Shown: piece by piece, positions 44,039 to 57,236 of the stretch
How the letters are laid out: each line of letters opens with the position of its first letter
Position numbering within the stretch: the first letter of the stretch is position 1
Origin: Allorhodopirellula solitaria
GTDB taxonomy: Bacteria > Planctomycetota > Planctomycetia > Pirellulales > Pirellulaceae
Length of the DNA: 64,000 bases
Direction: 5' to 3'
Assembly (NCBI RefSeq): GCF_007859855.1
Contig: NZ_SJPK01000002.1
Span: 491,003-555,002 of the forward strand
Translations under genes and position numbers: made by a program
The notes under the pieces: generated by a model
The model's input: only the letters and a program-made list of their open reading frames with translations
The model's database searches: none
Told to the model about the DNA's origin: nothing

Positions 44039-44150
44039 CCGCGCGGTCCAGGCAATCGATGGATCTAGCGAAACCTTTGCGTGTCCGTCTGGTTAGATGT
44101 CTTGTAGGAAACAAACTATTCTCCTCTCATCTTTCCAAGGCAAAACCGAT

Positions 44151-45092
44151 ATGCGTATGAAATCACTGGGTCTATTGATGGTCACGGGGGCAGCCGTGAC
44201 ATTTGCACCGCTCGCTTGGGCGGCACCTCCCGAGAAGAAGGGGGCCCACGAAGATGGTCCACGTGGTGGACGCGATTCAGGTCGCATGATGTCGATGCTG
44301 CCCGTCCTGTCTGCGCTCGATGCGGACAAAGATGGCACGATCTCGAGCGACGAGATTGAGAACGCTTCCGCGGCCCTCGGGGAGCTGGATAAGAACGACG
44401 ACGGCAAACTCGACCGGAGCGAGTTGCGACCGGATTTCGCCGGTCGCTCCGGACCACCCCGCGGTTCGCGGCACGCGAGCCGGGATTCCGGTCGCCGATG
44501 GGACCGTGATGGCGACCGCAACGGACGCAGCCGAGATGCCCGCCGGGGTGATGCTCGCCGTCACGATTCTCGTGGACGAGATGGCGTCGGCCGGCGTGAT
44601 CGCGGCCGAAATTCGTTTGACCGAGACGCTCATCATCGCAGTGCTCGCGGTCGCCGCGCACCCGAGCAGACTGATCAACGCCATGATGCCCGCGGACGCG
44701 GTGGACGTGATGCCCATGGTCACGCTGGCGATGGTCGCGATGCCGAGCGAGGTCCAGAGAGCCGAAAGGACGATGCAAAGCAAAGGGTTTCACGGGAGAA
44801 AGATAAAGCCAAACAGGCAGACAAACCGCGTGATTCGAAACCGAGCAAGCCCGCCGCTGGACCACGCCAAGGGTCTCCGATCATGGAGCGTTTGCTGAGC
44901 TTAGACAAGGACGGTGATGGCGAACTGTCGAAGGACGAGTTGGCAGATCTGCCTGTGGGCGGCCAGCGACTGCTCAAGGCCGGTGATGGCAACGAGGACG
45001 GAGCCCTTTCAAGCGACGAACTCTCAACGCTAAAAGAACGTGGCCAAGACTTTTGGAAGCAACGTCGAGAGCGTGCAGAGCAGAGCGAGTGA
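44151..45092 (+). CDS. Secreted EF-hand protein with a His/Arg/Asp-rich centre
   Basis: 313 residues from the ATG at 44151 (a start 18 codons earlier is possible but less signal-like). The signal peptide is followed by two EF-hand loops (DADKDGTISSDE, DKNDDGKLDRSE), a central region of about 130 residues rich in Arg, Asp, His and Gly, then two more loops (DKDGDGELSKDE, GDGNEDGALSSDE). Calcium binding outside the cytoplasm is expected. The low-complexity centre is probably disordered. It follows the sulfatase by 112 bp; a functional tie is unproven. Confidence 0.8.
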   Translation: MRMKSLGLLMVTGAAVTFAPLAWAAPPEKKGAHEDGPRGGRDSGRMMSMLPVLSALDADKDGTISSDEIENASAALGELDKNDDGKLDRSELRPDFAGRSGPPRGSRHASRDSGRRWDRDGDRNGRSRDARRGDARRHDSRGRDGVGRRDRGRNSFDRDAHHRSARGRRAPEQTDQRHDARGRGGRDAHGHAGDGRDAERGPESRKDDAKQRVSREKDKAKQADKPRDSKPSKPAAGPRQGSPIMERLLSLDKDGDGELSKDELADLPVGGQRLLKAGDGNEDGALSSDELSTLKERGQDFWKQRRERAEQSE

Positions 45093-45145: not shown

Positions 45146-45544
45146 TCAGTCTCTGACTGCTTCGCTTCGGTAGTCGTTTGCGATTCTCGTGACCCCGTCG
45201 ATCACTTTGACTTCGTGGAAATTGATGAGCAGGCCGACCGACAGGCCTGCCAGTCGCAGGTGTGACAATAGTTGAGCCTTGTCGATCGGATGAATGGTCG
45301 ATTTTGCTTTGAGTTCCAGGATAACACTGCTGTCAATGATCAGGTCGGCTCGGAATCCACATTCCATTCGTACTTTGTCATAGATGACTGGGATGGGTTT
45401 TTCTTCAATCGCATCGTGGCCTCGCTTGCGTAGTTCGTAAGCTAAGCATTTTCGATAGGCGGTTTCGAGTAGGCCGGGGCCGAGTTGTCGATGCACCTCG
45501 ATTGCTGCACCGATGATTGACTGGGTGAGTGGGTCTTTGTTCAT
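45146..45544 (-). CDS. GxxExxY protein, PD-(D/E)XK nuclease fold
   Basis: A 132-residue cytoplasmic protein of the GxxExxY family. The name-giving motif is Gly24-Leu-Leu-Glu27-Thr-Ala-Tyr30 inside HRQLGPGLLETAYRKCL. The nuclease-fold signature is Asp67 (FRADLII) with Glu77-Leu-Lys79 (VILELKAK). A terminal strand FHEVKVIDGVTRI completes it. Family members are widespread and uncharacterised; nuclease activity is inferred from the fold. Remarkably, the first 12 codons and the upstream hairpin of this gene are repeated three more times just upstream (45777-46435). It is convergent with the EF-hand gene. Confidence 0.85.
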   Translation of the reverse strand: MNKDPLTQSIIGAAIEVHRQLGPGLLETAYRKCLAYELRKRGHDAIEEKPIPVIYDKVRMECGFRADLIIDSSVILELKAKSTIHPIDKAQLLSHLRLAGLSVGLLINFHEVKVIDGVTRIANDYRSEAVRD

Positions 45545-46435
45545 CGGGATGCTGTGGTGATGGGGATTTTGAATCGCAGAGGCGCAAAGAACGCAGAGTC
45601 CAGTGCTGAAATCTACTTGTTTTTACCTCTGCGCCTCTGCGTTGAAAACTGAATCTGTAAGGCTTCAGCGCAGAGCGTGTCGGTCTGAATCATTCTGCGA
45701 TTCATTTTATCCTCGGTTCGGTTCCGTTGTCGTCGACGATTCTTTTCACCCCGCTTACCCGTCCGGTCTGACTGTACCGATGATTGACTGGGTGAGTGGA
45801 TCCGCCATCATTGGGATGTTGTGGTGACGGGAATTTTGAATCGCAGAGGCGCAGAGGACGCAGAGTCCCTTACTGAAATTTCCTTGTTTTTACCTCTGCG
45901 TCCTCTGCGCCTCTGCGTTGAAAACCGACACTGAAAGAAGTCAGCGCAGAGCGTGTCGGTCCGAATCATTCTGCGATTCTTTTCACCCCGCTTACCCGTC
46001 CGGTCTGACTGTACCGATGATTGACTGGGTGAGTGGATCCGCCTTCATTGGGATGTTGTGGTGACGGGAATTTTGAATCGCAGAGGCGCAGAGGACGCAG
46101 AGTCCCTTACTGAAATTTCCTTGTTTTTACCTCTGCGTCCTCTGCGCCTCTGCGTTGAAAACCGAAACTGAAAGAAGTCAGCGCAGAGCGTGTCGGTCCG
46201 AATCATTCTGCGATTCTTTTCACCCCACTTACCCGTCCGGTCTGACTGTACCGATGATTGACTGGGTGAGTGGATCCGCCATCATTGGGATGTTGTGGAG
46301 ATGGGGATTTTGAATCGCAGAGGCGCAGAGGACGCAGAGTCCAGTGCTCAAATTTACTTGTTTTTACCTCTGCGTTGAAAAGAGAACTCAGCGCAGAGTG
46401 TGCCGGCCTGGAGCATTCAGCGATTCATTCCGCCT
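45545..46435. repeat. Tandem array of the GxxExxY 5' end plus hairpin, about 237 bp per copy
   Basis: Units begin at 45510 (the functional gene start), 45777, 46014 and 46251, with steps of 267, 237 and 237 bp. Each contains a copy of the first 12 codons of the nuclease-fold gene, then an inverted repeat made of CTCTGCG/CGCAGAG blocks, then a shared tail. In the extra copies the frame reads MMADPLTQSIIG and stops six codons later. Copies 2 and 3 have a perfect 24-bp stem (45842-45865 with 45894-45917, and 46079-46102 with 46131-46154). The stem in copies 1 and 4 is shortened. The last copy is cut off near 46435; 46436-46486 shows nothing else. Confidence 0.9.
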
Positions 46436-56620: not shown

Positions 56621-57236
56621 AGTAGCCAGACGGCTCCGCCCGTCTGAGCTGTGGGAGAGTGCTCGTTCTCGCGACGGTCGGAGCCGTCGGTCGACAAAGT
56701 AGCCAGACGGCTCCGCCCGTCTGAGCTATGAGAGAGTGCCCGTTCTCGCGACGGTCGGAGCCGTCGGTCGACATAGTAGCCAGACGGCTCCGCCCGTCTG
56801 AGCTGTGAGAGAGTGCCCGTTCTCGCGACGGTCGGAGCCGTCGGTTGACATAGTAGCCAGACGGCTCCGCCCGTCTGAGCTATGAGAGAGTGCCCGTTCT
56901 CGCGACGGTCGGAGCCGTCGGTCGACATAGTAGCCAGACGGCTCCGCCCGTCTGAGCTGTGAGAGAGTGCCCGTTCTCGCGACGGTCGGAGCCGTCGGTT
57001 GACATAGTAGCCAGACGGCTCCGCCCGTCTGAGCTGTGAGAGAGTGCCCGTTCTCGCGACGGACGGAGCCGTCGGTCGACATAGTAGCCAGACGGCTCCG
57101 CCCGTCTGAGCTGTGAGAGAGTGCCCGTTCTCGCGACGGTCGGAGCCGTCGGTCGACATAGTAGCCAGACGGCTCCGCCCGTCTGAGCTGTGAGAGAGTG
57201 CTCGTTTCTCGCGACGGTCGGAGCCGTTGGTCGACA
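56621..57236. repeat. Tandem array, 8 copies of a 77-bp double-palindrome unit
   Basis: Units begin at 56621, 56698, 56775, 56852, 56929, 57006, 57083 and 57160, each step 77 bp. Each has palindrome A (CAGACGG/CCGTCTG) and palindrome B (CGACGG/CCGTCG), the same two elements as in the 81-bp array at 451-772, but with a spacer 4 bp shorter between A and B. Most differences between copies fall in spacers or loops. The last copy has a C to T change in a B arm that would leave a G-T pair. The array starts right after the polA stop and ends about 110 bp before the next gene. Confidence 0.95.

Follow-up and report, generated by a model that had tools for sequence, protein, structure and literature searches.

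Inverted repeat arms around GxxExxY nuclease-fold genes: a probable REPIN/RAYT-like element in bacterial genomes

Genes of the GxxExxY family, which encode a small protein of predicted nuclease fold, carry inverted arms of one motif on both sides in 79 of 105 loci that were selected only for similarity of the protein (one duplicate removed), and such arms were found at none of 59 control places. The arms, the gene and its derivative copies very probably make up one element with a layout like that of the REPIN/RAYT systems. That a PD-(D/E)XK nuclease replaces the HUH transposase in this element and mobilises or maintains the repeats is a reading held with moderate confidence. The repeat array described below lies in a window of 64,000 nucleotides, the whole stretch of DNA analysed, from Allorhodopirellula solitaria. 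Its features are the following:

45146..45544, minus strand: complete GxxExxY gene, PD-(D/E)XK fold, 132 aa, presumed autonomous part
45568..45648, no strand: hairpin 1, imperfect stem, directly upstream of the complete gene
45735..45753, minus strand: possible remnant of the gene 3' end in unit 2, 74-84% to 45179-45197
45776..45811, minus strand: gene-start fragment of unit 2, first 12 codons, 18 codons to the stop
45835..45924, no strand: hairpin 2, perfect 24 bp, arms 45842-45865 and 45894-45917
45972-45990 and 46209-46227: further possible gene-3'-end remnants, repeat family D4, 74-84% to 45179-45197 across the three
46013..46048, minus strand: gene-start fragment of unit 3
46072..46161, no strand: hairpin 3, perfect 24 bp, arms 46079-46102 and 46131-46154
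46250..46285, minus strand: gene-start fragment of unit 4
46309..46383, no strand: hairpin 4, right arm truncated

The anatomy given in the initial annotation was confirmed. Four tandem units start at 45505, 45772, 46009 and 46246, with a spacing of 267, 237 and 237 bp. Reading of the open frames places a whole gene at unit 1 only, and translation shows that units 2-4 consist of the first 12 gene codons and stop after 18; this 18-codon reading is MMADPLTQSIIGTVRPDG followed by the stop, with K replacing the second M in one unit. Copies 2-4 are 86-89% identical to copy 1 across 129 nt, and between copies 2 and 3 the identity is 99% across 237 nt. The latter two are also the copies having the perfect 24-bp stem. 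Folded as single-stranded DNA, hairpins 2 and 3 reach -33.1 kcal/mol (z -10), a value equalled by 0 of 200 shuffles, by which a chance hairpin is rejected. For hairpin 1 the fold gave z -3.3, a weaker value that none of 200 shuffles matched, and the truncated hairpin 4 keeps an outer stem of 8 bp (z -2.7, matched by 3 of 200 shuffles). When a window unit was aligned to the gene 3' end, a fraction of 0.01-0.11 of the shuffles aligned equally well, which is only suggestive of a retained piece of the gene 3' end in the units. No downstream arm was recognisable for the gene-bearing copy of the window. On its other side the gene adjoins an ordinary EF-hand protein gene (44097-45092).

Internally deleted copies are clearer in related genomes. 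In the genus of the window, genome G374 has a tandem array in which one full copy is joined by three with internal deletions, G373 an array of one full and two deleted copies, and G375 one full and one deleted copy at a contig end; G381 of the same genus and G392 of the family have a single gene between hairpins. With its single full gene and its three short copies, the array of G374 mirrors the window layout. In another family, that of G217, the copies keep the first ~87 and the last ~150 bases of the element while the middle is lost. Such fused copies of start and end occupy one other shared site in G217, G355 and G122 (loci L188, L199 and L194), a copy cut down further is found at the same site in G354 (L202), and shorter copies consisting of arms only are present at additional places. 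Copies at different places are about 72-83% alike in the G217 family, so the spread there is old rather than recent. The origin of short copies by internal deletion is thus clear in the congeners and in this other family, and suggestive in the window itself, where the units most likely carry the gene start because they are internal-deletion derivatives of a gene-bearing element.

The same family is found elsewhere in the 6.8-Mb genome of the window. The motif CGCAGAGGCGCAGAG occurs 23 times, compared to 0 occurrences of the reversed string. The GxxExxY family gave 6 matches in 4 loci, and direct reading of the DNA revealed CTCTGCG-type arms at the gene in all four. In the locus at 731 kb of contig C1, a whole gene lies between two hairpin copies that are 84% alike. 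Contigs C4, C5, C6, C8, C9 and C30 carry hairpins or arms that have no whole gene attached, and in those of C4 and C9 a resemblance to the first 14-18 codons is retained. A separate observation concerns locus L014 (2060-3130), where a tandem pair of N-truncated GxxExxY copies has the arm sequence fused directly into the reading frame.

Across the Planctomycetota, the gene was detected in 139 of 294 genomes; one of their loci, L023, agrees in every letter with part of the named planctomycete record L046, which places the set in this phylum. The 30 best loci by E-value, one per genome, were tested against shuffles for inverted similarity of the 220 nt upstream to the 220 nt downstream. An inverted repeat was found at z >= 4.9 around 28 of these loci, the exceptions being L035 and L038. 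In a scan of named genomes, the best 80 of at least 578 relatives were taken, 76 of which had enough flank; z exceeded 5 in 56 of the 76, and in 0 of 59 places located 900 bp farther out. In the combined set of 105 loci, arms were scored as present when they contained three or more units of CRCNRAG or CATGAAG, and the motif of the arms reads TTYACC-RCRRAG-(N1-2)-CRCRRAG. The enrichment of hairpins beside GxxExxY genes of other genomes, on which the initial annotation had made its proposal depend, is therefore borne out, and arms as a general trait of any gene flank are rejected by the 59 control places. The 26 loci without canonical arms comprise 22 of other kinds and 4 that are inside-out. 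Among the named loci, CRCNRAG-type arms were found in 54 of 76, representing 11 of the 13 phyla sampled and including one of the two from Methanobacteriota; many are metagenome bins, in which mis-binning is possible. Up to 14 scored GxxExxY matches were found per genome.

The association also holds at the level of genomes. A genome was counted if it contained at least three paired CTCTGCG motifs, kinship between genomes being ignored. On this count, 68 of 139 gene-bearing planctomycete genomes and 8 of 155 gene-less ones have the paired motifs (odds ratio 17.6, kinship ignored). The outcome named beforehand as a refutation, hairpins equally common in genomes lacking the protein, is not what was seen. 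With the reversed motif, 19 gene-bearing and 12 gene-less genomes were counted (p 0.13); this control also leans to the gene-bearing genomes at thresholds of 5 (p 0.04) and 10 (p 0.01). Six genomes without a detected gene (G039, G051, G091, G210, G245 and G290) carry 15-79 paired motifs, and no gene pieces were detectable in 30 loci, some of them overlapping, taken from these six.

The ends of the element were compared using a strict pattern that anchored 130 arms of 109 loci on ACC (61 upstream and 69 downstream), of which 112 were alignable. The fixed anchor letters are conserved by construction in the resulting logo. Two T's just outside the anchored pattern are conserved as well (0.75 and 0.92 bits), and positions farther out are near background. 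Three repeat units are present in 104 of the 130 anchored arms. The gap between the first two units is 1 nt in 69 and 2 nt in 42 of the 112 alignable arms, and the median distance from the matched gene segment to the outer arm ends is 56 and 50 nt.

Arm sequence differs between elements and matches within one element. An arm was matched best by its partner from the same locus in 43 of 105 cases (~1 expected), and the inverted orientation beat the direct one in 80 of 105 with 2 ties. Both arms were anchored in 56 loci. The spacers there are of equal length in 98% of own pairs versus 52% of cross pairs, and the variable unit positions agree at 0.89 versus 0.56. The spacer letters match weakly, at 0.63 in own and 0.51 in cross pairs. 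Since the units match better than the spacers, a protein-binding repeat is suggested more than a perfect stem, and pure hairpin pairing is not the main constraint.

A comparison is offered by the TIGR02436 genes, which encode four-helix-bundle proteins that we take not to be nucleases. They are flanked by inverted arrays in about 22-23 of 30 loci (L261-L290), and 15 scored TIGR02436 matches occur in the genome of the window. Their arrays consist of other motifs of ~7 bp, e.g., TTAGTTG and GGTCAG. CRCNRAG arms were found in none of these 30 loci, as against 79 of 105 GxxExxY loci, which shows that the arm motif goes with the protein family. The TIGR02436 genes look like a parallel element family. 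Enclosure of four-helix-bundle genes by inverted arrays also means that a nuclease may not be needed.

The protein of the window matches PF13366 (PDDEXK_3) at E 1.4e-36 and 125.8 bits against a cut-off of 22, and TIGR04256 (GxxExxY) at E 1.3e-38 and 131.9 bits against a cut-off of 35. Its structure model has a mean pLDDT of 89.6. The leading Foldseek matches were LHK-Exo, Cas4 and lambda exonuclease, all weak (probability up to 0.99, E 5e-3 or worse, TMq ~0.5); no Foldseek match was obtained at E 1e-3, and no solved relative was found by sequence at E <= 10. Searches of the defence and phage libraries likewise gave no match. Every row of a 70-row alignment has E27, D67 and E77, and K79, Q91 and Y95 are each kept in 90% or more of the rows. 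Q91 and Y95 form a QxxxY motif. The protein is predicted to keep the PD-(D/E)XK active site of the RecB/Cas4 type. Fifteen pairs from six open genes at the efflux site described below gave a dN/dS of 0.05-0.15 over the matched stretch, and judged by these ratios the gene is under purifying selection. A stop inside the matched stretch was present in 4 of 80 named genes (the best 80 of at least 578 relatives). A GxxExxY domain is mentioned beside a reverse transcriptase in a published report (PMC8934634).

At the six junctions read, the elements occupy tight gene junctions and are oriented with the operon. The names of the junction genes come from reading of translations:

trpE-trpG: L072, L103, L106 and L114; in L066 the trpE side only, as the contig ends
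carA-carB: L058 and L107
groEL-dnaJ: L024, L041 and L086
moxR-DUF58: L060 and L076
before purH: L067 and L095
between two efflux genes: L029, L032 and L045

The efflux junction was searched in 33 genomes of one family, and 9 of them hold the same element. A GxxExxY segment was found at an independent E < 0.01 in 21 of 30 fetched loci of this junction. It is empty in G358, and G195 and G353 have apparent remnants. G217 and G355 have flanks that are 97% (left) and 85% (right) identical, and the elements between them have CGCAGAG versus CACAGATTT arms and proteins only 39% identical. This difference is better read as one element having replaced another, or as a further insertion, than as gradual divergence. 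A diverged GxxExxY subtype was noted at the same junction in L165, L166, L175, L177, L178, L180 and L182; its arms are of the CACAGATTT type where read, its proteins are 35-39% identical in the four compared, and at this junction relatives have the CGCAGAG type.

In a tree test with 46 rows, a single clade was rejected for 0 of 5 shared sites including the efflux junction, at low power owing to the few columns. Repeated insertion is thus not shown by the trees, and elsewhere vertical descent fits equally well. No clean target-site duplication was seen in 33 genomes of one family, in which two sites were examined and the pairs are too diverged, or at groEL-dnaJ (61 genomes searched, 22 loci examined), where they are likewise too diverged; no recent insertion was found at the filled and empty sites compared. 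The best hint of one is a possible, imperfect 26-bp duplication of the trpE end and trpG start on the two sides of the element in L114 (2880-3440), where both genes are intact. For the site of the window, 20 of 40 genomes (its own included) gave any match, and 0 of 39 relatives have the gene together with the flanking genes as in the window, so no empty site is available for the window array.

The proposed element would be compact, ~460 bp at the best-mapped site, with the GxxExxY gene between palindromic ends. It would begin at an outer TTYACC and continue with a first arm (2-4 CRCRRAG repeats set 1-2 nt apart), the gene and an inverted second arm. Gene-less hairpins of the form arm-spacer-arm may be regarded as non-autonomous derivatives comparable to REPINs or MITEs, and so may the copies having only the gene start and gene end; the window would then contain one gene-bearing copy and three derivatives multiplied in tandem. 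The protein would bind the repeats in the arms of the element that encodes it, and its PD-(D/E)XK site could cut the DNA of these arms, probably while it is folded as a hairpin or single-stranded. Host repair would then make copies at a new intergenic site, in trans for the derivatives too, with tandem arrays arising as a by-product. Mobilisation of the repeats by the nuclease is suggested by the conserved active site, the specificity of the motif and the derivative copies, and mobility as such by presence or absence at sites and again by the derivatives.

The initial annotation had proposed an undescribed repeat-maintaining or mobile partnership reminiscent of RAYTs and REPINs. The association stands in both the locus and the genome counts, and mobility would follow from presence/absence and derivatives; no description of a GxxExxY, PF13366 or TIGR04256 element or of the repeat strings was found in the literature searched. 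The resemblance to RAYTs holds as an analogy of layout and does not extend to the enzyme class. In both systems a single-gene partner stands beside inverted palindromic units, gene-less hairpins are found elsewhere and several motif families exist. As in REPIN/RAYT systems, inverted doublets are located near the partner gene and are dispersed in gene-carrying genomes, with six gene-negative exceptions. RAYTs are described as HUH proteins with a catalytic tyrosine and GTAG-tagged REPs, and TIRYT genes as lying between terminal inverted repeats which make up repeat families as well (PMC3733652); RAYTs are reported to exist as single copies (PMC3116915). The partner here is instead a PDDEXK_3 protein and not an HUH/tyrosine transposase, the arm logo TTYACC-RCRRAG has no GTAG (or CGTC) tag, the repeats are phased at 8-9 bp, the gene is enclosed between the arms, and up to 14 matches occur per genome.

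Insertion sequences and their MITEs are similar in that terminal inverted repeats bound one gene and its internally deleted copies. They differ in that the gene here is PDDEXK_3 and not a DDE, HUH, serine or tyrosine transposase, the terminal repeats are short-period arrays, and no target-site duplication was seen (the pairs being diverged). The intervening sequences (IVS) of 23S rRNA are likewise selfish elements with one small ORF, that of Coxiella being described as 428 nt long (PMC4990558). Unlike the GxxExxY loci read, which lie between protein genes, they are inserted in rRNA and have an S23/four-helix-bundle ORF. With RecB, Cas4 and lambda exonuclease the protein shares the predicted fold and the E-D-ExK-QxxxY residues, but it is only 132 aa long and its Foldseek match is weak, and no helicase or Cas gene was noticed next to it in the context as read.

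Several other explanations were weighed against the nuclease-driven element. The arrays could be multiplied by another, unlinked enzyme such as an HUH transposase, the GxxExxY gene being a passenger or homing-type gene in the loops. The six gene-negative genomes with many paired motifs and no gene fragment agree with this, as do the four-helix-bundle genes in similar arrays of other motifs. However, those six genomes are drafts of 72-92% completeness, the arm motif is specific to the protein family, and the deletion derivatives keep both gene ends together with the arms, as if gene and arms were one unit; this explanation is considered unlikely. An RNA-level element seems improbable. Its arm stems in operon mRNA would be cut by RNase III, and it would be kept by transcript removal or tuning of expression, with a side role for the protein. 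Complementary arms and co-orientation with the operon at the six junctions fit such an element, and the IVS elements, similar in size and having an ORF, are described as excised by RNase III (PMC4990558). A pure stem would not be expected to keep the unit positions better than the spacers, nor does an RNA role account for gene-less copies at many other, apparently intergenic places or for the conserved nuclease residues.

The arrays could also be binding or regulatory sites of a host-useful nuclease engaged in repeat maintenance, recombination control or defence, and not substrates of a mobility enzyme. In favour of this are the low dN/dS, the operon positions shared between loci and an apparently chromosomal life: a search with a single protein found no match among 50,697 phage records and 7 among 72,556 plasmid records, and an alignment search found no relative among 24 pattern hits in viral contigs. 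A selfish gene and a domesticated or useful one would account equally well for the strong purifying selection and the shared operon positions. The defence library gave no match to the protein, though, and the patchy presence among genomes, the pseudogenes noted above, the apparent replacement at one site and the deletion derivatives point to an element, so a purely host-serving role is judged quite improbable. The plain alternative of the initial annotation, local duplication in tandem of a gene start together with a chance hairpin, accounts for the array itself, and the 99% identity of copies 2 and 3 is what recent duplication predicts. It does not explain the association of gene and arms: the same arms accompany the gene in most loci across phyla, congeners have similar arrays with deleted copies, and hairpins are present elsewhere in the genome. 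As the whole explanation it is refuted and would be extremely improbable, while it stays true for the array step.

The nuclease-driven element may belong to a wider class. Unrecognised minimal elements shared by phyla of bacteria and archaea, in which one RecB/Cas4-like PD-(D/E)XK nuclease of ~130 aa acts on its own inverted arms of phased repeats and mobilises gene-less hairpins in trans, with the four-helix-bundle genes as a parallel second class, are proposed tentatively, as a possibility somewhat short of probable. If true, this would assign a function to a family that is widespread and known from its sequence motif alone, and it would explain a class of bacterial hairpin repeats of the CTCTGCG/CTCTGTG type. 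It would also add a nuclease class to the enzymes driving transposition alone; to our knowledge, no nuclease of this class is known to do so. The persistence of gene-less palindromes could then be tested in a second independent system beside REPIN/RAYT.

Two further tandem arrays are present in the window at 448-772 and 56621-57236, with periods of 81 and 77 bp and a related unit containing CAGACGGCTCCGCCCGTCTG. Allowing up to 2 mismatches, CAGACGGCTCCGCCCGTCTG was located at 119 forward and 122 reverse places of the genome, and its reversed control at 0. These arrays are a second, unrelated REP-like family.
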